Source: a virus
IMG/VR virus record: IMGVR_UViG_3300025879_000101
Location: 1 to 24,582 of that record
DNA: 24,582 nt
Direction: 5' to 3' (one strand)
A model generated the notes under the pieces. It was not told the DNA's origin. It saw only the letters and a list, made by a program, of their open reading frames with translations, and ran no database searches. Both the position numbers and the translations under genes were made by a program. Positions 2,315 through 21,044 of the stretch are shown here, piece after piece. Position 1 is the first letter of the stretch. The number at the start of each line of letters is the position of its first letter.

Positions 2315-2343
2315 ATTATATCAATATGCACCTTCGAGTGCAA
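2315..2343 (-). promoter_or_regulatory. Sigma70-type promoter for the accessory tail genes (cassette A)
   Basis: Minus strand -35 TTGCAC (2338-2343), 17-base spacer and perfect -10 TATAAT (2315-2320). Transcription would start near 2308, just ahead of the AGGAG ribosome site, giving a leader of about 13 bases. An inverted repeat, TGCAC / GTGCA at 2327-2342, overlaps the -35 and the spacer and could be an operator. Confidence 0.82.
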
Positions 2344-2360
2344 GAATTATTTTTAAGAGG

Positions 2361-2388
2361 TAAGAAAACCCTGCACTAAGCAAGGTTT
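2361..2388 (-). terminator. Intrinsic terminator at the fibre stop codon (cassette A)
   Basis: Minus strand arms AAACCTTGC and GCAGGGTTT pair over nine positions with one G-U pair; the five-base loop contains the fibre TAG stop. A TTTTCTT run follows. Because the stop codon sits in the loop, a terminating ribosome would cover the hairpin and may influence read-through. Confidence 0.85.
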
Positions 2389-5300
2389 CCTATTTTAACT
2401 CGTAATACCCCACCAGAAAATACCTTTATAGTTCCCCCATCAAACTCTGTACGATCATCTCCAGATCCATCTGATATTTCAAGAGTGCCTTCAGATTCGT
2501 CAAAGAAAATGTGTTTTCCGCCAGAGTCTCCGATCATTACATCTCCGTCTTGATTAATTACAGCACCTTTTCCCGATATAGTAGTACCGCTAATATCAGG
2601 GGCTGTGCCTCCTGTAGGGTAAACTTGAATTTTTCTAGCTATAACACTCTCAGCGTCGAGAACGTCTGTATCTACTACGTTAAAGGTACCTATATCTGCC
2701 GTAATTGTGTCAAAGTTTGCGCTATGGTTTTTCAGTTTAAGATTGGTACCATCCATCTCTAAGCCGTCATTGCCGCTTACTGTTATACCCCCTTTTGTAG
2801 TAGAAGAAGCAGTGGGAAGGCTATAACTAGTACTTTGTACATTTGCTGAAAGGACTCCGTTTGTAATAGTAAGTCTGTCTCCTACTTTAATACCCCCTAA
2901 AGTATTAGTGGTAGCAGTAGGTAAACTATAGTTATTCGCGCTTGTAGCAATTCCATCTAACTTAGTTTTATCTGTAGAAGACATAAGACCATCTACACCC
3001 GTAGTAGCATTGTTATACGTAGTATTTGCGTCATCTCTCCAAGCAGGGTTACCACTTGCATCGGTCTTCCAGACTTTATTAGCTTGGCTAGCCCCTGAAG
3101 CTACATATCCTTCTGAAGTGCTAGAGTTGGCTTTCCATGTATTTGCGTCATCTCTCCAAGCAGGGTCACCACTTGCATCGGTCTTCCAGACTTTATTAGC
3201 TACAGCCCCGGGAGCTGATACGTACCCCGCTACGGTTTTTGTGTTTGCATTCCAGGTATTAGTGTCAGTGGCGGCAATGGTTAATTTACTATCACTATTT
3301 CTAGTAACAGTCACGTTAGTTCCACCCGCGATCTCTATATCGTCAGTACTCCCAGTAGAACCGTTTAATCTTATTTTTGTAGTATCAGCAGGAATCGAGG
3401 TTGTATAAGTTGTGTTGGTATCATCATTTGCGTCATCTCTCCAAGCAGGAACACCATTTGCATCTGTTTTCCATACTTTATTGGCTTGTCCAGATCCCGA
3501 CGCTACATACCCTTCAGAAGTACTAGAGTTAGCTTTCCATGTATTTGTATCCTGAAAAGTAGTTCTAACAACAGTGTCTTTATTTGTGAACGTAGGTTCA
3601 GTAGAGTATTCTTCTACAGACCAGTTATCTCCCCAAGTAGCTACGGCGCCACTAGCGCTATAACCAGCGTATAGATTCTTAGCCACAAGCTGTAGATAGC
3701 TAGTAGTTTCTCCGCTTAGTATAAAGACCGTGTTTCCATCAGTGTCTCTGGCTACTTCTATAGTAGGATTTACGTTTGGATTAGTTGTTGTATACCTAAA
3801 ACCGCTAAAACCTCCGTTAGTTTCTGGATTCCAGTAACCATAAATATGAAGCTCTGCGCCTTCCGTGTTTGTATTATAAGCGTTTTGATAAATTAAATCA
3901 AAACCTGCCATGCTATAACTATCCTGAGGTACTTTTGTACGAATTACTACATAAGCAGGTGCTCCACTATTATCTGAATAAGTAGTAAGAATTTTATCCC
4001 AAGTATGAAAATCATGATCTCCATCATCTTGAGCATAGTTTTTATACGGATTTATCTTAAATTCTGTACCGGTAAGACTCAGCCCACTTCCTGCCGTGTA
4101 TGTTGTATCAGTAAAAACTGCATTAGCCGGTACAGCAGTTTTAACGTTATCAAAAGCCCAGTTAGAACTGATAGATGTGGTAGTAGCTCCATCTTCTGGA
4201 GTATCATGTATAGCTCTTTGTGTATTAGTATCAGTAGAAGAAATAGTTATAGTATTTCCGGTTTGAGTTACTGTAGTAGCTCCAGACCCCGCTACTGTGA
4301 TAGTACCAGAAGCCTCTGATCCATCAATACCCACACTTGTTACTGTATCCGTATCTGTAAAAACAGCATTAGCAGGTACAGCAGTTTTAACGTTATCAAA
4401 AGCCCAGTTAGAACTGATAGATGTGGTAGTAGCTCCATCTTCTGGAGTATCATGTATAGCTCTTTGTGTATTTGACCAAGGAACATTAACATACATCTTA
4501 CCTTCTGAACTTAATTCTACAGGGTAATTTTTGCCATCTTCTGCAAACCCTGTCTTAACTAAACCTAAAACGCTTGAAGTTGCTTGTGCGTATGTAGTAT
4601 TTGTAGAGGAGATAGTAAGTTTAGTGGCACTTGTACGAGTAACAGAAGTAGCCCCGCTTCCTGCAATCTCTACGTCATCATTTGTACTATTAGAGCCTGT
4701 TAGTCTTATTTTTGTAGTACTTGCAGGAACAGTTAGATCGTATGTAGTATTTGTATCTACGTAAGAAGTTAAGTATCTATTATCAAGATCTACTGTAGCC
4801 CCTGCACGACCAGGGCCAGTTAAAGTAAGTATTCCGTTATCTGTATCAAAACTTGCGGCATTAATGTAGTCTACTGAGTTATCAATAGTAGGCTTATTTG
4901 TAATGTTATCCCAATCTAAGCTACCATCAAAAGTAGTTGCGGTCACTGTTCCGTCTACTTGTAAAGCACTTGTACCATTATCTACATCAGTGCCAATTAG
5001 TACATTTCCTGCGTATTCTGCTAAACGTATAGTTCCATCATCATCTACTTCAATACTTGGTATACCAGATACGTCATTTACGGAAAATATAGTACCTGTT
5101 AAAGTATCTGATATTGAAAAAAGCTGCCCTGCAGATCCACTAAACGATAGTGTACCTCCGTCTAACATAGTTGCTGTAATTTCTGAAGCTTGATCAGGCG
5201 AAACAAAGTCTATTTCAGGAACTGTAATAGTACCTGTAAAAGTGTCTCCAGATACATTTGCTTTTCCTGGAATAGAGATAGCATTATAAGTTCCTGAAAC

Positions 5301-8219
5301 ATCTCCTCCAAAAACTGTATCAGTACTTAAATAGTAAGAACTAGACTGTCCTCCTAAAGTAGACGCATCAACTCCTGTAAGATCATTGTTAAAAATACTT
5401 AATTTTATCTCACTAATTGCTTTTCGTTTTTGAGAAGAGCTATCTAGAATTACCAATTCATCTGTTGATACAGCTTCTTCTGTCATATCTGTAAGCTCAG
5501 ATAGGTCTACTCTTATTTCTTCGTTAACAATATCTATAAGAGTTCCAGCACTGTAGGTCGTATCGGTAGAAGATAGTACCCCATCTGATATACTTAGGTT
5601 AGTCCCTACTTTAATACCTCCTAAAGTATTAGGAGATGCTGCAGGTAACGTGTAAGCTTGAGAGTCCGCAGAAAGAACTCCGTCTTCTATCGTTAGATTA
5701 GAGCCTACTTTGATACCACCTAAAACGTCAGCAGTTGCTGCAGATAAAGTATAGTTGTTTGCGTTTGTATCAATTCCATTTAACTTAGTTTTATCGGTAG
5801 AGGACATAAGACCTGCTGCAGTAATAGTAGCATTGCTGTAGGTAGTGTCTGTATCATCTCTCCAAGCAGGAACACCACTCGCATTAGTCTTCCAGACTTG
5901 ATTTGCTGTAGAGCTTGTAGGAGCTGCTACGTACCCTGCTACGTCTACAGCATTTGCATTCCAAGTATTATTATCTGTGGACGAGATAGTTATAGCACCA
6001 CCGTCTTGAGTTATTGTAGTAGCCCCAGAACCTCCTAAAGTAATAGTACCCGTAGACTCTGAGCCAGAAACTCCAACACTTGTTACTGTATTATCATCTG
6101 TCCAAGGAACATTAACATACATTTGACCGTTACTTAACTCTACTGGATAGTTTTTACCATTTTCAGTGTAGCCTATTTTTACAAGGCCTAGTGTACTACT
6201 AGTAGCTGTGCTGTAAGTAGTATTTGTACCTGTAATAGTAACTTTCTTACTTGTATCGTTATAAGCTACAGAAACTGCGCCACTTCCTTCAAATTTTACA
6301 GTATTTCCAGAAGATACTGTCCCCGTTGTGGTTCCGTCAGATACTGTCCAGCTTTGATATTTATCGTAGTCAGAGCCTAAAGGGAGATTATGGTACCCAG
6401 ATCCGTCATTAGTAAACATCCATCTACTATTAGACTCATTCCAAAGTAAAGATACATTGGACTCTGTAGAGCCTCGTTCTACTTCAATACCAGCACTTTC
6501 TGTAGGTTCCGCTCCGGTAAAGTTACTATTTAAAACTATAGTATTGTCTGCTATGTTTACTTCTTCTGTATTGATTGTAGTGGTACTGCCAGATACAGTA
6601 AGATTTCCACTAATAGTCATATTATTTACGGTAAGGTTTTTAGCAGTAGTATTTCCTCTGCCAAGAACAGTATCAATTGTATCAGACTCTGATTGTAGGT
6701 ATCTTCCGTCTAGATCTACAGTTAGGTCTGAAAGCTCTCCAGTTCTGCCTAGTGTAAGGACCCCTCCGTCCGTACTAAAAGAAACAGAATCTACATAATC
6801 ATTTGTGTCTGTTGCAGTTACGGTAATAGTTTGACCGCTAATAGTTCCTGTTAGATTTGTGGAAAGGTTTACAGATGTAACTGCTACTGGTACGGCTTCA
6901 GTTTCTCCGTCTGGGATAGCAGTGAACGTAGTACCGTCTTGTTGAAAAGTAATACCTGCAATTGCATCAATGTTTGAAGAAGCATCAATAGTTACGCCAG
7001 AAAGACTAAGATTAGTACCATCCCATAAGATATGAGCAGATGCGTCTCCGAATACAAACTTTCCGTCTGTAAGATCAATAAAGGCACCAGATTCGTCGCC
7101 CTCTGGAGCAGAGTCAGCATCAGGAATAGCATTAGCTCCAGAGTTCTGCATAGTACCTGCTGTAATTGTACCTAGATTAGCAGAGATAGCGGAAAGGCTC
7201 GTAGCGGTTATATCACCTGCATCTACGTCTCCTCGAAGAGTTAAAGTGCCTTCTGATTGATCCCAGAATATATATCTATCATTTAAAAAATCACCAATAT
7301 AAACGTCACCATCTTGTTTAATGTCTACCCCTGCACCAGATAGTACAGGATCTCCTGTTACAGGATCTTCGGTAATAGTAGGAGCAGAACCTGTTTCTGG
7401 ATATACTTGAATTTCTCGTGCTATAACAGCTTCTGCGTTAAGGGTATCAGTATCAAGAACTCCAAACTCACCTATATCTGCTACTAGAGTTCCGAAGTTA
7501 CCTACCTCTGCATTAATTTGATTAGCCGTAATAGTGTTGGCGGCTATATGCTCTGCGGTAATTGTGCCTGCTGTAATATCATCTGCGTTTAAGTCTCCTC
7601 GAAAGGTCATCGTACCTTCTGACTGGTCCCAGAACATATACTTGTCTGCTGAAAAATCTCCAATGTATACGTCACCGTCAGCTTTTAAATCAATACCAGA
7701 GCCTGTTAATACAGGATCTCCTGTTACAGGATCTTCTGTAATTGTAGGAGCAGTGCCATCTTCTGGATATATTTGTACTTCCCGAGCTATAACACTATCA
7801 GCGTCTAGCAACCCCGTGTCGATTTCGCCAAATATACCAATATCTGCTACTAATTTTCCGAAGTTACCTTCTTCTGCGTTAATTTTATCTGCTGTGATCG
7901 TGCCATCGACAATTAAATCACCACTAATTACTTCTTCTTGGTTTGACCAAGTAGTTCCGCTATATATCCATACGGATTGCGAAGTAGGAGAAGACTCTGT
8001 ACCTGTATAAAACCAGGCTTGATCATCTGCGACTGGATCGGTAGGTTGTACACCAGTACCGTTTGTCCACGCAGAGGAGGCTTCTGTGCTGTTTGTAGGT
8101 AGCGCGGTTACTCCGATACTCCAACGGCCGGGACCGCGAGCACCGTCCTCTCCTGGAGTTCCGTTTTCTCCGTCGAGTATATCTGTTAAGGTTGCTTGTC
8201 CTATTGCTGTTCTGCTCAT
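2376..8219 (-). CDS. Long modular tail fibre protein
   Basis: 1947 residues, strongly Ser/Thr/Asn/Gly/Asp-rich, beta-rich and repetitive; probably a trimeric fibre attached to the tip. Order: collagen-like Gly-X-Y triplets at residues 17-31; two tandem 122-residue modules (about 110-340) with [23 protein letters not shown] and DGDVYIGDF; a module with [20 protein letters not shown] and AGIEVERGS (about 540-610); many copies of short fibre modules such as [18 protein letters not shown] and [15 protein letters not shown]; an aromatic, non-repeated domain at about 1387-1558; and a third copy of the first module at the C-terminus (about 1830-1925). I see no intramolecular chaperone such as a peptidase S74 domain. 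It has its own promoter and terminators on both sides. Host binding is inferred from position and composition. Confidence 0.88.
3023..3205 (-). repeat. Pair of short direct repeats in the fibre gene
   Basis: A stretch of about 60 bases beginning near 3023 recurs with period 117 (39 codons) near 3140 with very few changes. It encodes the [11 protein letters not shown] and PAWRDDAN unit. Diverged copies occur near 3430 and 5853, so the unit has been copied at least four times. Confidence 0.85.
4111..4472 (-). repeat. Pair of 116-base direct repeats in the fibre gene
   Basis: Bases 4111-4226 and 4357-4472 are nearly identical, with period 246 (82 codons). Both encode [20 protein letters not shown] and the following [15 protein letters not shown]. 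Only a few substitutions are visible, such as at the two ends of the unit, which points to recent duplication or gene conversion. Confidence 0.9.
7345..7736 (-). repeat. Tandem 366-base module repeat in the fibre gene
   Basis: The N-terminal modules repeat with period 366 bases (122 codons). An identical 26-base block starts at 7345 and 7711 and encodes [11 protein letters not shown]; the rest of the module is conserved at protein level. A third, more diverged copy lies at about 2400-2720, at the other end of the gene. Confidence 0.8.
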
Positions 8220-8243
8220 TTTTATTCCTGATGTATAGCTTGT

Positions 8244-8260
8244 GCGATAAAAGAAATCGC
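8244..8260 (-). promoter_or_regulatory. Small leader hairpin before the fibre gene
   Basis: Arms GCGAT and ATCGC with a seven-base loop, inside the predicted fibre leader and upstream of the CAGGA ribosome site. It may protect the 5' end or affect translation; it has no U-run and I do not call it a terminator. Confidence 0.35.
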
Positions 8261-8290
8261 TAAGAAGGGTGTTTGTTCAACTATACAAAG

Positions 8291-8319
8291 ATTATACCTT
8301 CAAAATAAATAATATGCAA
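8291..8319 (-). promoter_or_regulatory. Sigma70-type promoter for the long fibre gene (cassette B)
   Basis: Minus strand -35 TTGCAT (8314-8319), 17-base spacer and perfect -10 TATAAT (8291-8296), lying between the J terminator and the fibre gene. The box TTCTTACCTCCCC lies just upstream at 8331-8343. Transcription would start near 8284 and leave a leader of about 65 bases. Confidence 0.85.
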
Positions 8320-8341
8320 GAAATTTTTTTGGGGAGGTAAG

Positions 8342-8369
8342 AATAAAAGGCCCTTTATTTGGGCCTTTT
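8342..8369 (-). terminator. Intrinsic terminator after J-like gene (cassette B)
   Basis: Minus strand arms AAAAGGCCC and GGGCCTTTT form a perfect nine-pair stem with a seven-base loop, followed by ATTC and the shared TTCTTAC box. The hairpin begins four bases past the J-like stop codon. Its A-rich and T-rich sides would let it act in both directions, but no plus-strand gene is present. Confidence 0.92.
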
Positions 8370-8373
8370 GTCT

Positions 8374-11300
8374 TTATACTACTGTTGCTTCACAAGTGAT
8401 TAGGTTGGAGCTACCATCATCTATATCCTCATGTCCGACTATGATACTTGAAAAGCTAGAGCCTACGGCATTTATAGTTCCATTAGACATGTCTACTCTA
8501 TTATCTGTATCGAGCTTTATAGTTATTCCATCTCGTTTCCAGTGATAAGTTACTCCAGAGGTAACTAAATTATCTCCGTCATACACTACAGCGGAAAGTG
8601 TTTTTTCGTCTCCAGAGCCGTTTTTAAAAGTAAAGCCTGCAATGCTTGACTCAATGCTTACAGATATAGCATTTAACGACTTATCTACAGAAGTGTAAGC
8701 TTTAAACGTATCTTCGGTAGAAACATAAAGCTCTGCCACTATACTATCTTCTATGTAGTCAGGCTCGAATGACAGCTTAGATATAGAAGAATCTACAATA
8801 GTACTATTAAAAGTCCTGTCTATTAATAATTCTGTATCACTTTCTATATAAACTATCTTGGCTACTACAGACCCCATCTTTATCAAGGAACCTACGGAGA
8901 ATTCTGAAGTAAATACAGTAGATACGCCTGTAACTCTGGTTTTCTGAACAGACACACTACCTGTAGCTGAAATAAAATCGTTATTGTTTAAATTATTTTT
9001 CCAATAATTAACGTTTAAAGCAGTATCCTTTATGTAAGTACAAGGGATTAAAGACTGTTCTGATCTATCAAAAACAATAGAATAAGTACCTGAAGCGAGA
9101 CTCGATATATCTAAAGAGGCTATCTCTCCTCTGTATACATTTACAGGATTAGCTATAGTTGCTAAAGAAGGACTAGCATATGCAAAACCTAAGATATTAT
9201 TTGCTAACTCTATAGTTGTACCAGCGCTCCCACCGATAGGTAAACCTCCTGCACCTCTAGGAACATTTAAAGCAAACTTATCTTCTACAGTAAACTTAGT
9301 AAATACAGATCCAGATTTATTACCAGTAGGCCCTACAGTGCTTACTCCCACAGAGTAGCTACCATCAGAAACACCTTCAAACACATATTTTGTAATGCTA
9401 GAAGAAAGTCTTAAAGGGCTTTCATAGCCAGAAATTGTATGGTAAACTAAAATTTCCGCTACTTCATTAGAGATATTATCTTGCTCTGGAAGATCCCACA
9501 TTAGTATAAACTCATTACCGCCCTTATTATAGTCAGCATCCATATGAATGTATAAGTTTTCAACCTTAGGAGGCTCAGCACTAAAAGGTATTTTAGGATA
9601 TACAGTATCAGGGGTTACCAAACTAAACTCTTTTGTTATATCATCAAATTTGGTTGAGTAGTACTCTACTGCTGTAATACTAAACTGCGACTTACTATCT
9701 TCAGTTATAGCTAGTATTCTATACTCTTTGGAAGAGCTTAATGCCGTTCCTTCTACAGTCTTTTCTACTATTGTCCAAATAGCTCCTGCTTTTGGTGCAG
9801 AAGATAGTGCATCAAAAGTTAAAGCACTTACATTAGATCCCGTAGGATTTGTAATAGATACTTTTTCTACTTTTACAGGTCTATCTGCCTGCTCACCTTC
9901 GTTAGGAGAAGATAAATCTTCTAAGATTATATTTAGCTCATACTGATTGCCCTCTTGTAAGTAAACAGGGCTATCAATAGTCATAGAAGTTGTGGTAGGT
10001 TGTGCAGAACTACTGACTCTACCACTAAATCGTACATTATATTCTCCAGAGTCTTGAACGTTTATAATGTCCCCAGGCATTAAAAAGGCAGAATCTAAAG
10101 ACGTTTTAAACGATACAATTTCTGTCTGATTTATAGAAGTCCAAAGTTTCCATCTACCGTAACGTATAGCTTGGCCTTCAGAAGTACAGCCAAAAGCTAC
10201 AGCTTGTTCAGATATTAACTTACCTGTTTTTACAATATTTTCTTTGTCTTCTACTATGATGTTTCTTTGAGCGTAATTTAACTCAGGATCGTTCCAAGTT
10301 ACAATTACTTGGTTAGCTCTAGTCTTACTTCCTGTACTTTCATAAGAGAACTCGCCTTTAATAACATTTGATTTTGAGAAGTTGTATATAGGATCACTTC
10401 TCATATCTGCCACCGCTTTTAACTCTCCTTCGGTCCAGTACATAATACCAATAAAGATAGTTGCAAAGTCTTTTAAAACCTTGTAGGCGTCCGCAGCTTT
10501 GGTTAAGTAAATATTTGCAGTAAATCGAGGCTCTAAACCACCTTTTCCATCAGGCACAAGTTCATCACAGTATTTTGCTATTCTGTATAGAGCATACTTA
10601 TCTACATCGTCTACTGAGATCCAATCACCGAGACCATATCTATTGTTAGATATTATGTCATAAAATACCCAGGCAGGGTTATTAGTATAGACTCTTTCTT
10701 CTCTAAACTGCCCCGTAGTCCATAATCCATTGTATAAATCTGAAGGATCCTGAGATCCTGCTAATTCTCTAGGGGTGTAATTATCAGGTACTTTTACCTT
10801 TAGACCTCTAACGTGATAAGTTCTTTTAGGTAAGTTAGGAAACTCTTTTGCAGAGAAAGTTAGGTGTGCATACGAAGTTAGAGGATAGTTTAAAGGCTCT
10901 TTAATTACAGCGTTAACACCAGAAATAATAGAAGTAGCGTATATGTCGCTATGCTCTTTAGTCGTTCCATCTTCAAAAATAGCGTCTCCATCGTGTCTTG
11001 TAATTCTTTCAAATTTTACAGCAAAATCTGTAAAAGGCTTAAAAGGCTCTAAGTTTATTACTTCTTCAAAGACAACGGGAGAGGTAGTCTGTCCATAGTG
11101 GTCTCTGGACTCTGTAAGTACTATCTCTGACTCCTCTAAACCTCTAATAATTTTTAAGGTAATTTTATAGCTAGCTCTTGCTATATTTTCATTACCATTT
11201 TCCCGGTTTCTGTTAAGTAAACTTCCATATTTTATAGTTAAACGAGCTTCATCTGCTTCAGAAGCTTGCTCTGCAGATAAGCCAAAACCACTTGAAGAAG

Positions 11301-12297
11301 ATCCCTGTATAAAAGGAGATGCTGCAGCGACACCTTGAGGATCTTCCGAGTTTGCGTCTATAAATTCTAAAGCTAGTGTTTGAAAGCTATTATTTGGTAT
11401 CTGTATGGAATTAACACCTATGCCAGTTGCTTCAATAGGTGGTTGATATAAAGTACCAGTGCGAAACTGTGCTGTACTGTGTTCATACTTATCTGCAAGC
11501 TCGAAAAAGTTTCTAGTATCTAAAGGCTGACGTGCTCTGGTTTTATAAAGTTGAGAAACTGTTACTTTAAAAGTTCCAGACTTAGGCGCATTTGTTAAAA
11601 ATCTAATTTCTTTTGCTGCAGGATCATCTTTTTCTACTACAGCACCCCACTCTATAATAACTGTATTATAGTGTATGTTTAAAGTTAAAGTTTGATTTTG
11701 AGGTATATCAAGTAAGGCTACATTAGAGAGGTTATCAGGGATAAATCTAAAATATCCATCAGCTTCTCCAGTATCCCCAGCTTCTATAATGTACCCTTGA
11801 AGTGTAACTAAATCACCATCTCTAGAGTAGCTTAGCGTAGCATTGGGGTAATTAAATGCAGTATCTTCTGAAGCTACTACCATTTGAGAAGTAGGAGAAG
11901 TTACGTCTAAATTGTTCAAGTAAATACTATTACCAGTGCCGGCATCCTCACCTCCATAATTACCTTTAGACACAGAAAACTCCCACACGTCTAAAAGAAG
12001 TGCGATTCTTCGTACTCCCGTATCTAGGTAATCAATATACTGAGGTGTATCGCTAGTGGCATTCACACTTCCAGCCACTGTTGTAAAGTTTAATTCAGTC
12101 GCTATACTGCTACCTTGTCCAGTAGCTAACATGAATCGGTCATCGTTTAAATATATAGAAGAACCTCCCTCAACTAAACCCTCTATAGGGCCTTCTGAGA
12201 TAAGATCTGATATACAGATAATCTGTTCTTTGGTAATTCCGCTGGTTTTTGCAAGAGTAGACTCTCCTGCTATTTTTCTATCTCTACTTGTTATCAT
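8374..12297 (-). CDS. Tail tip host-specificity protein J-like
   Basis: 1307 residues (lambda gpJ is 1132). The central tip protein, forming a trimeric hub that contacts the host receptor. The N-terminal ISDLISEGPIEGLVEG (about 29-44) with SSIYLNDD, and the central NPAWVFYDIISNNRYGLGDW (about 537-556), are diagnostic of the J family. An Fn3-like domain lies at about 912-1009. After it come a region with RVTGVSTVFTSEFSVGSLIK (about 1110-1160) and an Ig-like C-terminal domain (about 1232-1307, with YHWKRDG and LITCEATVV). The C-terminal parts are the likely receptor-contacting or fibre-docking regions. It begins two bases after the I-like stop and has only a weak ribosome site, so coupling is probable. 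A strong terminator follows. Confidence 0.95.
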   Translation of the reverse strand: MITSRDRKIAGESTLAKTSGITKEQIICISDLISEGPIEGLVEGGSSIYLNDDRFMLATGQGSSIATELNFTTVAGSVNATSDTPQYIDYLDTGVRRIALLLDVWEFSVSKGNYGGEDAGTGNSIYLNNLDVTSPTSQMVVASEDTAFNYPNATLSYSRDGDLVTLQGYIIEAGDTGEADGYFRFIPDNLSNVALLDIPQNQTLTLNIHYNTVIIEWGAVVEKDDPAAKEIRFLTNAPKSGTFKVTVSQLYKTRARQPLDTRNFFELADKYEHSTAQFRTGTLYQPPIEATGIGVNSIQIPNNSFQTLALEFIDANSEDPQGVAAASPFIQGSSSSGFGLSAEQASEADEARLTIKYGSLLNRNRENGNENIARASYKITLKIIRGLEESEIVLTESRDHYGQTTSPVVFEEVINLEPFKPFTDFAVKFERITRHDGDAIFEDGTTKEHSDIYATSIISGVNAVIKEPLNYPLTSYAHLTFSAKEFPNLPKRTYHVRGLKVKVPDNYTPRELAGSQDPSDLYNGLWTTGQFREERVYTNNPAWVFYDIISNNRYGLGDWISVDDVDKYALYRIAKYCDELVPDGKGGLEPRFTANIYLTKAADAYKVLKDFATIFIGIMYWTEGELKAVADMRSDPIYNFSKSNVIKGEFSYESTGSKTRANQVIVTWNDPELNYAQRNIIVEDKENIVKTGKLISEQAVAFGCTSEGQAIRYGRWKLWTSINQTEIVSFKTSLDSAFLMPGDIINVQDSGEYNVRFSGRVSSSAQPTTTSMTIDSPVYLQEGNQYELNIILEDLSSPNEGEQADRPVKVEKVSITNPTGSNVSALTFDALSSAPKAGAIWTIVEKTVEGTALSSSKEYRILAITEDSKSQFSITAVEYYSTKFDDITKEFSLVTPDTVYPKIPFSAEPPKVENLYIHMDADYNKGGNEFILMWDLPEQDNISNEVAEILVYHTISGYESPLRLSSSITKYVFEGVSDGSYSVGVSTVGPTGNKSGSVFTKFTVEDKFALNVPRGAGGLPIGGSAGTTIELANNILGFAYASPSLATIANPVNVYRGEIASLDISSLASGTYSIVFDRSEQSLIPCTYIKDTALNVNYWKNNLNNNDFISATGSVSVQKTRVTGVSTVFTSEFSVGSLIKMGSVVAKIVYIESDTELLIDRTFNSTIVDSSISKLSFEPDYIEDSIVAELYVSTEDTFKAYTSVDKSLNAISVSIESSIAGFTFKNGSGDEKTLSAVVYDGDNLVTSGVTYHWKRDGITIKLDTDNRVDMSNGTINAVGSSFSSIIVGHEDIDDGSSNLITCEATVV

Positions 12298-12299
12298 AA

Positions 12300-12986
12300 T
12301 TATTCTCTTACTACCGTCACAGTGCCTGTGTGTCCATCGCCTCTATCTCCTGATACATTATTTCCTCCAGAGCCGTAGTTATTCGCTACATGGCTACGTC
12401 TAGAAGATATTACCCCAAAGTTTATAGGTTTTCCTGGGACTTTTAATTCTCCGTATAAAATAGGAACAGGATCCCCTTCTACAGAGTTTTGATTACTGCC
12501 ATCAAAAAGATATGAAGCAGGCTCATCCGAGTCCGTAGAAGGGTCTGGAGCCATTAATTGTTGAATACCTGTCAAAGCTAAATTAATACCTATAGACGCT
12601 GCAATCTGTCCTGGAATAGTTAAAGATCCTGCCTCTATTAAAAAGCCGCTTGCTCCTTGAGCGCCTGGTATCATAAAAGATGCTGCTATAAGAAGTGCTG
12701 CAAATAATTTACTTTCACCACTTTTTGAACCTGCGGGTACTGCGGAAATTAAAATATCTCCATCGTCTAAAGGAAGTATAAGGTCTTCTTCTGAGTTCAG
12801 AGATTTATTAGCTACCTGAAAAGAAAAACTTATGTTTTTTCTCTCACATTCTACTAAGTAATGTTTTACGTCTTCAAAATTAGCTTGAAGTACTCTAAAA
12901 ACTTCAGAAATAGAAGAAACATTCATATCAAATACCTTTCCGTATTTGAATGCTATCTCTCCTTCTAAGTAAACTTTACGCATCAT
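12300..12986 (-). CDS. Tail assembly protein I-like
   Basis: 228 residues. The N-terminal 80 residues (VYLEGEIAFKYG ... LPLDDGDILISAVPAGSKSG) look like the ubiquitin-like domain of the lambda tail assembly I family. A hydrophobic glycine- and alanine-rich stretch follows (about 94-145). Then comes the conserved SYLFDGSNQNSVEGDPVPIL and YGELKVPG, the usual motif of this family before its C-terminus. In lambda, I is needed to load or assemble J at the tip and is not found in the virion. The start overlaps the K-like gene by 11 bases. A second Met follows the first; I keep the first because CAGGA lies nearer to it. Confidence 0.9.
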   Translation of the reverse strand: MMRKVYLEGEIAFKYGKVFDMNVSSISEVFRVLQANFEDVKHYLVECERKNISFSFQVANKSLNSEEDLILPLDDGDILISAVPAGSKSGESKLFAALLIAASFMIPGAQGASGFLIEAGSLTIPGQIAASIGINLALTGIQQLMAPDPSTDSDEPASYLFDGSNQNSVEGDPVPILYGELKVPGKPINFGVISSRRSHVANNYGSGGNNVSGDRGDGHTGTVTVVRE

Positions 12987-13680
12987 ATCTGTAAATTCCT
13001 GTTAAATATTTTATCCAAAAGGGATAAAGGTTTTCTTTGCATGAAAGCCTGTTTTGTGCGTGGTGAAAAAATATGTCATTATTCACATAAACCCCGCAAT
13101 GATTTGGTACACCAGAATCTACAGAAAACACTAATAGATCATTGGGTTGTACATCGGTTACTTTATAAAATTTCCAAGAATTTAAGTACTCTTCTGAGAA
13201 GTAGTCCAATCCTTTTTTCCACCAGTCGTCCTCATACGGGTCTCTTGGAGGTAACTCTATACCTATTTCTTTATACCAGTCCTTGGATGCTTCAAAACAG
13301 TCTTTTGTACCAAAAGAGTAAGTACGTCCGTATAACTCAGTTTGATTATATCTAGGAGTTACTACTTCTAAATCCATACCTGGGTAACTAAATATGTAAT
13401 AAGGTATTCCTAGAGCATTGCAGTTATCTATATCTGTCTGAGAAGGAGTACTAGGTGCATCTGGATGGCTGTGTACTATACCTACAATATCTGCTATTTT
13501 CTTTATATTAAAGTACTCAGTAGAGTCCAGTACAAAGTCCTCTTCCGAAGGAGCTATATTAGTACAAGGGTACCATTGTAACTTGCCTTTTACTATACCT
13601 AGGACGCCACAGCCCTCTCTAGGGTACTCGCTTTCGAAATGGGCTTGTATTTCTGTTAAATAGTTAATTAAACTTTTCAC
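12976..13680 (-). CDS. Tail tip assembly protein K-like: JAMM peptidase plus NlpC/P60 domain
   Basis: 234 residues with the two-domain build of lambda gpK. The N-terminal part is a JAMM/Mov34 metallopeptidase-like domain: E22 in REGCGVLGIV, and the zinc motif H70-x-H72 ... S80 ... D83 in VHSHPDAPSTPSQTDID. The C-terminal part is an NlpC/P60-like cysteine peptidase: C128 in TKDCFEASKDWY, H194 in PNHCGVYV, and a further H206/H207. All expected catalytic residues appear present. Such proteins may process tip components or cut peptidoglycan during entry. The start is GTG, not ATG, with CAGG and a more distant GGAGG upstream, and it overlaps the end of the L-like gene by 17 bases. Confidence 0.92.
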   Translation of the reverse strand: MKSLINYLTEIQAHFESEYPREGCGVLGIVKGKLQWYPCTNIAPSEEDFVLDSTEYFNIKKIADIVGIVHSHPDAPSTPSQTDIDNCNALGIPYYIFSYPGMDLEVVTPRYNQTELYGRTYSFGTKDCFEASKDWYKEIGIELPPRDPYEDDWWKKGLDYFSEEYLNSWKFYKVTDVQPNDLLVFSVDSGVPNHCGVYVNNDIFFHHAQNRLSCKENLYPFWIKYLTGIYRYDA

Positions 13681-14752
13681 TACCTGGAAAGCCTCCGAAA
13701 GGTAAAGTTTTTGACGTGTCTTTTGAAGCCGATGGAATGCCTTCCGGAGTTATACGAGCTTGAAACCTACTCTTACAGCCACTAAGCTCTTTACTGCATA
13801 GATCTATTCTTATCCAATAAGCAGGCGCATCTCCAGGAACTTTTGTATTAGTGTTAATTAAACATCTCCAGGCTTTGTTATCGTGTACAACAACATCGTC
13901 TTTAGAATAGCTAGTGCCCTGAGAGAAATTTGTACTTACTATTAGCTCTTTCCAGAATGTAGATGTAACAGGATCTGTACCCAAGTTATCTACAACTTCA
14001 CTTCTATAGTATTTTCCGTTAAAAGTAATAACACTGTCTATATTATACGAAACTTCTGCATCGTACGCAGAAGTAAGCGAAGTTACTAGAGATAGAGAAA
14101 CGATAGGTCTATCAAAAGTGTCGAAGAAAAGAGTATACACGGTATCACCTACTAAGTAAGTGTTATCTATTTTCCAAATACAACCGCCTTTAGTATGTCT
14201 TTCGTAGCCTTGGTACATCCAAGAGCAGTATTTACCTACAGTTATTCTTTTAGGTAGCTTTACTCCTTCTACATCGTAAGGAGATGTAAGTTCAAAACTG
14301 ACCCCGATACTGTTTTTAGACGAAATTCTGTCTACATAAAAAGATGCTCTAGGGAACTCGAAAGGGTTTAAAGATTCTGATCCAGAGTCTAAATACTTTT
14401 CAAACGTTTTAATTCTAGTTAGTCTTTTACCTATTAAAGACTCAAACGAAAAGTTATAATCATTTAATAGATCTTTTAAAATGTTAGTAACATTTGCTAT
14501 AGTAAGAGTAGGTCTTCCACTAGCATTATCCGAAGAGACATCTACTCCATCTAAAAATACAGGCATAGGTTGATAAAGATTTCCCTTGAAAGATACCTCT
14601 TCTAAGCTACCGTCTAACCCAGCATGGAACCGTAAAATACCATCATCTTCAGAATCTAAAGACGTGTTTAAGTCTAACTCAAAAAGCTCTATAATAGGGC
14701 TTTCAATAAAACTTACTCTCAAATCATCTGTAAGAATCTTATTTTGGCTCAT
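13664..14752 (-). CDS. Minor tail protein L-like with inserted carbohydrate-binding-like repeats
   Basis: 362 residues, about 130 longer than lambda gpL (232). The N-terminal half (IIELFELDL, PTLTIANVTNILKDLL, RASFYVDRISSKNS, FELTSPYDVEG) and the end (LPFGGFPGSEKF) match the L family, which forms a tail tip part and in lambda holds an iron-sulphur cluster through four cysteines. Candidate ligands here are C176, C191, C319 and C326, the last pair in CSKELSGCKSRF. Between the pairs lies extra sequence, about residues 195-315, with two tandem units (about 229-270 and 277-316) of the pattern Y-x-x-x-D-x-V-x-x-x-x-x-x-(Y/W)-(R/Y), N-x-x-x-x-P, W that recalls CBM5/12 chitin-binding modules. The metal site and sugar binding are inferences. 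Confidence 0.85.
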   Translation of the reverse strand: MSQNKILTDDLRVSFIESPIIELFELDLNTSLDSEDDGILRFHAGLDGSLEEVSFKGNLYQPMPVFLDGVDVSSDNASGRPTLTIANVTNILKDLLNDYNFSFESLIGKRLTRIKTFEKYLDSGSESLNPFEFPRASFYVDRISSKNSIGVSFELTSPYDVEGVKLPKRITVGKYCSWMYQGYERHTKGGCIWKIDNTYLVGDTVYTLFFDTFDRPIVSLSLVTSLTSAYDAEVSYNIDSVITFNGKYYRSEVVDNLGTDPVTSTFWKELIVSTNFSQGTSYSKDDVVVHDNKAWRCLINTNTKVPGDAPAYWIRIDLCSKELSGCKSRFQARITPEGIPSASKDTSKTLPFGGFPGSEKFN

Positions 14753-15123
14753 GCTTCGTATACTCTTCTAAATTTTGCTGTTAAACTAAAGTAGTTTTCA
14801 TAGTTATGTACAGTGTTAAAGTTCTCACATACTACCTGCACAGTTACTTCTCCGCCAGATAAGTTACTATCTAAATACGTATACGGAAAACTACCTACGC
14901 CTTTTTTATCATTTAGAAATAAACGTATATTATCTATCTCTTCTTTTGCTCTTGTATTAAAAGACAGAGAATACTCCTCTTTTAAAGAGTTTATTCCGTC
15001 TGCTATTCTTTGCTCATACCCGTCACCAAACTTAGCGGTTAATACTTTATGACTCGAGCTTACTGTATGATTTTTATCGGGTATTGCAGTACTACCATCT
15101 AGTAGTGTAAATCCTATGCTCAT
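14749..15123 (-). CDS. Minor tail protein M-like
   Basis: 124 residues, close to lambda gpM (109). Predicted structural part of the tail tip, next to the tube end. The motif AKFGDGYEQRIADGIN near residues 30-45 is the signature of the phage minor tail M family, followed by the typical ITRTEEEA-like helix replaced here by TRAKEEIDNIRLFLND and the C-terminal YFSLTAKFRRVYEA. The start has GGAG seven bases upstream and overlaps the tape measure stop. Its TGA overlaps the next ATG as ATGA. Confidence 0.9.
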   Translation of the reverse strand: MSIGFTLLDGSTAIPDKNHTVSSSHKVLTAKFGDGYEQRIADGINSLKEEYSLSFNTRAKEEIDNIRLFLNDKKGVGSFPYTYLDSNLSGGEVTVQVVCENFNTVHNYENYFSLTAKFRRVYEA

Positions 15124-19887: not shown

Positions 19888-19916
19888 ATTATATTAGAGG
19901 GGAGGTTAGAAGTCAA
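19888..19916 (-). promoter_or_regulatory. Sigma70-type promoter for chaperone-tape-measure-tip operon (cassette C)
   Basis: Minus strand -35 TTGACT (19911-19916), exactly 17 bases of spacer, and a perfect -10 TATAAT (19888-19893). Start of transcription would fall near 19881, giving a leader of about 40 bases before the chaperone ATG with an AAGGA ribosome site. It sits directly after a terminator, so it can restart expression of the next block. The spacer holds a second copy of a box, TTCTAACCTCCCC, also found in cassette B. Confidence 0.85.
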
Positions 19917-19934
19917 GGACTATTTTTGAAAGGA

Positions 19935-19965
19935 GTAAGAAAAAAGGGACCGAAGCCCCCTTTTT
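19935..19965 (-). terminator. Intrinsic terminator after tail tube gene (cassette C)
   Basis: On the minus strand, arms AAAAAGGGGGC and GTCCCTTTTTT form an 11-pair stem with two G-U pairs and a UUCG tetraloop, followed by a T run that leads into the TTCTTAC box at 19935-19941. Read on the plus strand the two wobbles become A-C mismatches, so the hairpin is built for leftward transcription. Confidence 0.93.
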
Positions 19966-19970
19966 AGGTA

Positions 19971-21044
19971 TTAAGCACCTGTGTAGGCAATAGTTGCTTC
20001 ATCAGTGCCACTAATTGTGCTCGGAAGAGCGTGGAAGTTAGCCTCTAGTGAGATAACATCTTCAATTGAGTGTGTTGGTACTTCTAAGTGAGCAGTAGGC
20101 ATTGCTACTACCATATTTGGAGTACTACCACCACCAATGTTAAAGGTTAGTGAATGACTATTTGTAACTGTATTTCGATCTTCGATTAAGTTCTCAAAAA
20201 GGTCTGCACTAGAGTTATCTGCTGTATTTAAGTAACAAGTAAAGTTGCCTGAAATAGAGCGAGTCCCTGTAACATGACCTAAAGGTTGGTTAACAGTACA
20301 TAAAGTCTCTGGGGTTAGGAAAGTAATATTATTAGTAAAAGTGATATTACCGCCAGTCAAAGTAAGACCATAAGTAGTTCCGCCAGTGCCATTCTCTACC
20401 AGAGATAAAGAGGTTAAACGATTACGGATGAAGTTAGAAGTGCTATCAACACTACGAGCAATAGCTCCCGATGCGTCAAAGGCGACTTCTTCTGAGATAA
20501 CCTTACCAAAACCAGACCAGTTAATAGTTGCAATACCATCAATATCAAATTCAATACTTGCTTCGTTTGCAACACAATCAGCAATTTTATAAATTGTTAG
20601 ATCCGATGCGGCATTGAAGTTATCATCTGCATGGCCACAAGCTCCCATAACAAAAAATAAATCAAATGTACCTAATACAGTCTTATTTGAGTCATCAAAG
20701 TCGAAAGTAGTGGTATTAGTAGCAACAGTTACACCATTAGCCCAAGCACTACCATCGTACGAGTTTGCAGCAACAAAGTTTGCCCACAAAGCTTCTTCAA
20801 CTACAGTACCTGCATTTGGTCTTGCGTATGACGAAAAAGACCACTCTGCAGGAGCAAAAGAGTCATTAAACATTTGACGAGCACGACGAGAGTTGCCATC
20901 TACATCTGCCATTTCGTTTAGTGTGATTTCTGAAGCATTGGTAGCTTGTGAAAAAGAATACCCATCAAGTACTGGGATTTCCCAAACATTGTTGCCTTGC
21001 TTCAAGAATACTTTAGTATTTCTACTAAATTGTAAATTTGCCAT
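19971..21044 (-). CDS. Major tail tube protein
   Basis: 357 residues. Predicted to stack as hexameric rings forming the non-contractile tail tube, the role of lambda gpV. The start MANLQFSRNTKVFLKQGNNVWEIPVLDGYSFSQ and the later EITLNEMADVDG are typical of siphovirus tube proteins. The protein is rich in beta strand, Ser, Thr and Asn with few charges, as tube proteins are. It is longer than lambda gpV (246 residues), so there may be an added surface domain; I cannot delimit it. The ATG has a strong AGGAG site. A UUCG-loop terminator follows the gene, so the tube message is separated from the chaperone genes. Confidence 0.85.
   Translation of the reverse strand: MANLQFSRNTKVFLKQGNNVWEIPVLDGYSFSQATNASEITLNEMADVDGNSRRARQMFNDSFAPAEWSFSSYARPNAGTVVEEALWANFVAANSYDGSAWANGVTVATNTTTFDFDDSNKTVLGTFDLFFVMGACGHADDNFNAASDLTIYKIADCVANEASIEFDIDGIATINWSGFGKVISEEVAFDASGAIARSVDSTSNFIRNRLTSLSLVENGTGGTTYGLTLTGGNITFTNNITFLTPETLCTVNQPLGHVTGTRSISGNFTCYLNTADNSSADLFENLIEDRNTVTNSHSLTFNIGGGSTPNMVVAMPTAHLEVPTHSIEDVISLEANFHALPSTISGTDEATIAYTGA

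Follow-up and report, generated by a model that had tools for sequence, protein, structure and literature searches.

Putative terminator–promoter junctions and a late-associated ACC box in the late region of an uncultured marine T5-like phage

The late region of the phage described here is probably (at a probability of about 0.8) divided by terminator–promoter punctuation of the T5 type, with the late class of promoter set by the sequence around the promoter core. The window, meaning the whole stretch of DNA that was analysed, is a virus record of 24,582 bases (IMG/VR record IMGVR_UViG_3300025879_000101), a 24.6 kb fragment that holds late genes only, all of them on the minus strand. Comparison of promoter sequences in its relatives shows two consistent differences between the early and the late class, one in the base that follows the −10 hexamer and one in an ACC box at about −52.

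The phage and its relatives

Judged by its sequence, the source of the window is an uncultured marine T5-like (Demerecviridae-like) phage and not a lambda-like one. Its capsid (MCP) and tube proteins are about 33% identical to those of T5-group phages (Escherichia, Salmonella, Vibrio), and a DNA-level search of the phage collection returned no near relative of the window. In the relatives, T5.156, terL, portal, protease, MCP, tube, chaperones and pb2 follow one another in T5 order. The long ones hold the T5 early genes in one block and the T5 late genes in another; in four of them (G001, G002, G004 and G005) an early block with ligA, ligB, D5, D6, primase, polymerase and D10–D15 lies on its own strand. 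The group is large, the portal scan and the D6 scan each giving at least 600 matches.

A lambda-like M-L-K-I-J tail-tip module is found at 8374–15123 of the window, inside an otherwise T5-like late region. The same tip (M, L, K, I, J) is present in G001, G004, G009, G010 and G011, and in the sister contigs G003, G006 and G007 its place is taken by a T5-like pb3 tip. Two contigs with relatives of the D6 helicase (L361 and L362) were binned with marine Halieaceae and Porticoccaceae MAGs; they are the only contigs with a D6 relative that were found binned with marine gammaproteobacterial MAGs, and give a weak hint that the hosts are marine gammaproteobacteria.

Three cassettes in the window

The first-pass annotation had described three matching cassettes, here called A, B and C, and direct reading together with folding bore this out. 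All of them lie on the minus strand, with their parts ordered as hairpin, TTCTTAC, A-run, TTG-type −35, 17 bases and TATAAT, and the spacer between the −35 and TATAAT is exactly 17 bases in each.

Cassette C follows the gene for the major tail tube protein (19971..21044, minus strand; phrog_3575, 1.3e-51), whose T5-group counterparts are about 33% identical. Its predicted terminator hairpin, directly 3′ of this gene (19940..19965, minus strand), comprises 11 pairs and a T-tail (−12.3 kcal/mol). TTCTTAC (19941–19935) is followed after 18 nt by the −35, TTGACT (19916–19911), and after a further 17 nt by TATAAT (19893–19888). The putative late promoter (19888..19927, minus strand) comprises AAAAATA, TTGACT, 17 bp, TATAAT and a T discriminator, and has orthologous promoters in relatives; its late box, ACTCC (19932..19936, minus strand), has C at −17 from TTG.

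Cassette B lies 3′ of the tail-tip gene J. Its hairpin (8345..8369, minus strand) has 9 pairs (−15.8 kcal/mol), TTCTTAC (8343–8337) stands 17 nt before TTGCAT (8319–8314), and TATAAT (8296–8291) follows 17 nt later. The putative promoter (8291..8330, minus strand), with A7, TTGCAT, 17 bp, TATAAT and a C discriminator, is identical in sequence in contig L083, which is 100% identical in J. The late box, ACCTC (8334..8338, minus strand), again places C at −17 from TTG.

Cassette A has the weakest hairpin of the three (2368..2386, minus strand; 7–8 pairs, −9.7 kcal/mol, short T-tail), which overlaps the stop codon of the fibre gene. TTCTTAC (2366–2360) is followed by 16 nt, TTGCAC (2343–2338), 17 nt and TATAAT (2320–2315). 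The putative promoter (2315..2355, minus strand; AAAAATAATTC, TTGCAC, 17 bp, TATAAT, discriminator T) lies directly 5′ of the ribosome-binding site of the gene at 1954–2295, and the late box, ACCTC (2357..2361, minus strand), covers −18 to −14 from TTG, with C at −17. The features of a Rho-independent terminator, a GC-containing hairpin and a T-run, are clear in C and B and weak in A.

Cassettes B and A (2315–8369) bracket exactly the 1947-residue large tail fibre gene (2376..8219, minus strand), which has similar stretches in G003 and G009. Both have an unusual −35, TTGCA, as though the fibre gene were transcribed as a unit of its own. At these two junctions, cassettes of such form occur in the window only, except that B is also present in L083.

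Promoters A and B fall below the threshold of a generic sigma-70 scan because their −35 is TTGCA-, a weak one by E. coli standards, although TTGCT is what the promoters of T5 itself have. The scan gave 55 matches in the window against 52.8 in shuffles, that is, no excess, and TTCTTAC is likewise not enriched in the window (11 found, 6.75 expected). The case therefore rests on the comparison with relatives.

Early and late members of one promoter family

The relatives contain promoters with the features of T5-type sigma-70 promoters: an A-run at about −43, a TTG −35, 17 bp, TATAAT and many copies per genome. The family consensus is AAAAATA(A/G)TTCTTGAC(A/T)-N17-TATAAT, also given as AAAAATA-RTTCTTGAC-N17-TATAAT. 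In a first set of loci from relatives, the pattern of A-run, TTG, 17–19 bases and a TATAAT-like word was found 186 times on the coding strand, compared with 25 times on the other strand and 19 times in shuffled sequence. A promoter model gave 109 sites in eleven long contigs (551 kb) and 4 in reversed controls, a 27-fold excess, and new contigs yielded 376 coding-strand and 16 opposite-strand sites. The family is genome-wide and serves both early and late genes, recurring at the T5.156, terL/T5.153, tube and post-fibre junctions. At junction A the promoter is conserved in more than 40 relatives, mostly without a terminator there. Sequence comparison supports both this conservation and the proposal that the late region is partitioned by terminators and strong promoters of host type.

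The promoters of T5 itself are built alike, as in AAAAATTCATTTGCT then GTATAATATATTCATAAATT. The consensus of the T5-like phage AKFV33 is TTGCTw, a 17–18 bp spacer and TATAATA, with AAAAATT at −43 (PMC3326045). The A-run at −43, the TTG −35, the fixed 17 bp and the genome-wide repetition are common to these promoters and to the window family, which differs from AKFV33 in its mostly TTGAC −35, its AAAAATA run and a separate late version with ACC and a T discriminator.

When 107 sites were divided into early and late by the gene block that they serve, so that the classes denote gene content and not timing, T followed TATAAT in 30 of 40 late and 3 of 67 early sites (p = 1e-14). At this place most early sites show TATAATATA. 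The same bias was found in a hold-out of unused contigs (19/35 late, 3/103 early; p = 4e-11), with late sites taken from portal neighbourhoods, early sites from D6 neighbourhoods, and sites more than 80% identical to earlier ones removed. The early promoters of T5 carry ATATT in the discriminator, and it is mainly there that its early and late promoters differ (PMC7472727); the literature searched offered no other published map of the late promoters of T5. The marine relatives resemble T5 in that early promoters have ATA(T) after the −10 and late ones do not. However, in the relatives this difference is accompanied by an upstream ACC element.

This element was detected as a C at −17 from TTG, present in 30 of 40 late and 14 of 67 early sites (p = 5e-8, the smallest value among 196 column-base tests). 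The word around it is ACC, starting at −19 or −18 from TTG (about −52/−53), in 23 of 39 late and 4 of 65 early sites (p about 4e-9). In the hold-out, among sites with a 17-bp spacer, the counts were 23 of 35 and 10 of 88 (p about 4e-9), and within-contig permutation reached the observed late count in 0 of 20,000 trials. ACC starting at exactly −19/−18 was counted 46 times in 75 late promoters and 14 times in 170 early ones, figures which, like the p-values, overstate independence because orthologous junctions are related by descent, an effect that the hold-out, the within-contig permutation and the varied junctions reduce but do not remove. ACC is absent from about a third of late promoters.

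What the box does can be read in two ways. It could be an activator or repressor site, of host or phage, whose link with timing is only loose, or a feature of DNA shape next to the A-run, and not a late switch; this has somewhat less than an even chance of being right. Such a loose link agrees with the occurrence of the box in 14 of 153 early promoters and with its absence from the T5 late promoter P-G25, and a position fixed to the promoter is expected under either reading, whereas the strong late bias within the same contigs (the permutation above) argues against it. Alternatively, and more tentatively, the ACC box may be a candidate binding site for a phage-coded factor, D5 or another, which together with the discriminator would switch the host RNA polymerase from early to late promoters. 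As annotated in AY543070, D5 is needed for T5 late transcription, and G001, G002, G004 and G005 contain relatives of it, although the comparisons made here tie the ACC box to the promoter class and not to D5. In the contigs that were searched with tblastn (1e-6), no relative of gpT5.026 was detected, which divergence or incomplete contigs may explain.

Two further patterns were observed. A-N-(C/G)-T, 10–13 bases after TTG, is enriched in late spacers (A..T in 18/35 late and 18/88 early sites of the hold-out); as a part of the late signal it was set aside, having no link to ACC (21/46 with the box, 13/28 without). Moreover, the early promoters of G002 (L172–L173) share long spacer and leader words, such as CTCAATATTCGCTATAAT then ATATTTATAAACAATGG, which suggests recent copying or the site of a shared early regulator.

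Terminators, the tube junction and the course of late transcription

A hairpin lies directly 3′ of the tube gene in all 37 resolved non-redundant relatives. It precedes a promoter in 14 of them, as in the window, follows the promoter within the leader of the next gene in 13, and stands without a promoter in the remaining 10. With the hairpin in all 37 and the promoter variable, the hairpin is the constant part around which the promoter is placed. A terminator-like hairpin was found upstream of 10 of 40 late and 3 of 67 early promoters, almost all at the tube junction. As a general scheme, three equal cassettes are not supported, the terminator–promoter pair being common in relatives only at that junction.

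In the 13 relatives with the promoter before the hairpin (L011, L012, L013, L017, L019, L022, L040, L042, L053, L054, L055, L067 and L073), the terminator-like stem lies about 20–45 nt into the predicted transcript, usually with a T-rich tail, and could be an attenuator or an antitermination site. The promoters of these 13 have no ACC box and mostly an A discriminator. In L020, L029, L036, L047, L058, L074, L077, L078 and others, the tube gene is followed by a hairpin that lacks a promoter and has a short T-run at most, immediately ahead of the chaperone gene's ribosome-binding site.

The terminator–promoter arrangement is of a known kind, since a T5 terminator and late promoter have the same order of parts. 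In AY543070 a terminator is annotated at 92087–92113, with P-G25 (GAGGACTTTATGTCCTCCTTTTCTTTATGGAAAAATAAAAATTTCTTGATA-N17-TATAAT) directly after it. This T5 region (92013–92113) resembles the cassettes in its hairpin, T-tail, AAAAATA, TTG −35, 17 bp, TATAAT, short leader and late tail gene. It differs from cassette C in lying after the tape-measure gene pb2 and not after the tube gene, and from the cassettes in having no ACC box and an ATTG discriminator. Here too, as at P-G25, a late promoter is immediately preceded by an intrinsic terminator, as judged by predicted hairpins. A further likeness is seen in Vibrio phage Ceto (NC_042094, ~25302), where a hairpin and then TTGACT-N16-TATAAT, with a T discriminator, lie between late tail genes; there, however, the pair follows the tape-measure gene, the spacer is 16 bp and the A-run is weaker.

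The lambda late region is transcribed from PR′ with Q antitermination. The window shares with it the M-L-K-I-J gene order of the tail tip, but lambda has one late promoter and the window has several internal ones; several promoters per late block are also found in the relatives, unlike the single late promoter of a lambda Q-type operon. The earlier contrast with a lambda-like late message is not supported, the phage being T5-like with a lambda-like tail-tip module, and T5 late genes being already known to have strong sigma-70 promoters, one of them directly behind a terminator. It is unlikely that late expression is mainly one long antiterminated message with the internal promoters as minor boosters. 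In the 10 of 37 relatives whose tube gene is followed by a hairpin without a promoter, read-through must feed the downstream genes, which favours such a message, but promoters of the family recur at the T5.156, terL/T5.153, tube and post-fibre junctions, and no antitermination gene or site was noticed in the course of the comparison.

It had also been proposed that TTCTTAC itself may serve as a protein site or, where the terminator ends, as an RNA element. This is very improbable, even though the word occurs at nearly the same place in all three cassettes. In relatives, TTCTTAC was found in 0 of 75 late promoters, and at the tube junction they show TTCTTTC, TTATTAC, TTCGTAC or TATTTAC in its place. 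What is conserved is the ACC that overlaps it and keeps a fixed distance to the −35; on the sequence evidence, TTCTTAC is the end of the terminator tail joined to the left edge of the late (ACC) box. Furthermore, ACC occurs without an upstream terminator at the junction of gene 1954–2295 and at the terL/T5.153 junction, both of which usually have none. At the first of these junctions ACC keeps a fixed distance to the −35, whereas its distance to the upstream stop codon ranges from 17 to 24. These findings speak against an RNA element placed at the end of the terminator. Finally, chance matches in AT-rich intergenic DNA, with which the lack of TTCTTAC enrichment and the sigma-70 scan equal to shuffles (55 and 52.8) would agree, can be rejected given the promoters conserved at orthologous junctions, the 27-fold excess over the reversed control (109 and 4) and the coding-strand bias (186 and 25; 376 and 16).

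Under T5-type punctuation, the hairpin would end or thin the upstream message. After the tube gene, this would let the tube mRNA exceed the chaperone and tape-measure mRNA. Tails require the tube protein in many copies, a need that a tube-specific 3′ end lowering downstream transcription would fit. A T5-type promoter for the host RNA polymerase, packed against the terminator, would then restart transcription, with the A-run presumably acting as a proximal UP element beside the TTG −35, 17 bp and TATAAT. The late class would be kept by T in place of A-T-A after the −10, together with the ACC box, some 52 bp before the start, as the putative site of a phage-coded or phage-modified factor next to the A-run.

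How T5 turns early genes off and late genes on, when both classes have strong sigma-70 promoters, has been stated to be unknown (PMC7472727). The punctuation of the late region is of a known kind; what is new is the late-specific ACC box, a lead on the T5 early-to-late switch that can be tested. Together, the box and the base after the −10 make a compact target, open to direct tests with a laboratory phage. If the proposal is true, the temporal switch in a large marine branch of the T5 group would have its missing DNA signal in the ACC box.
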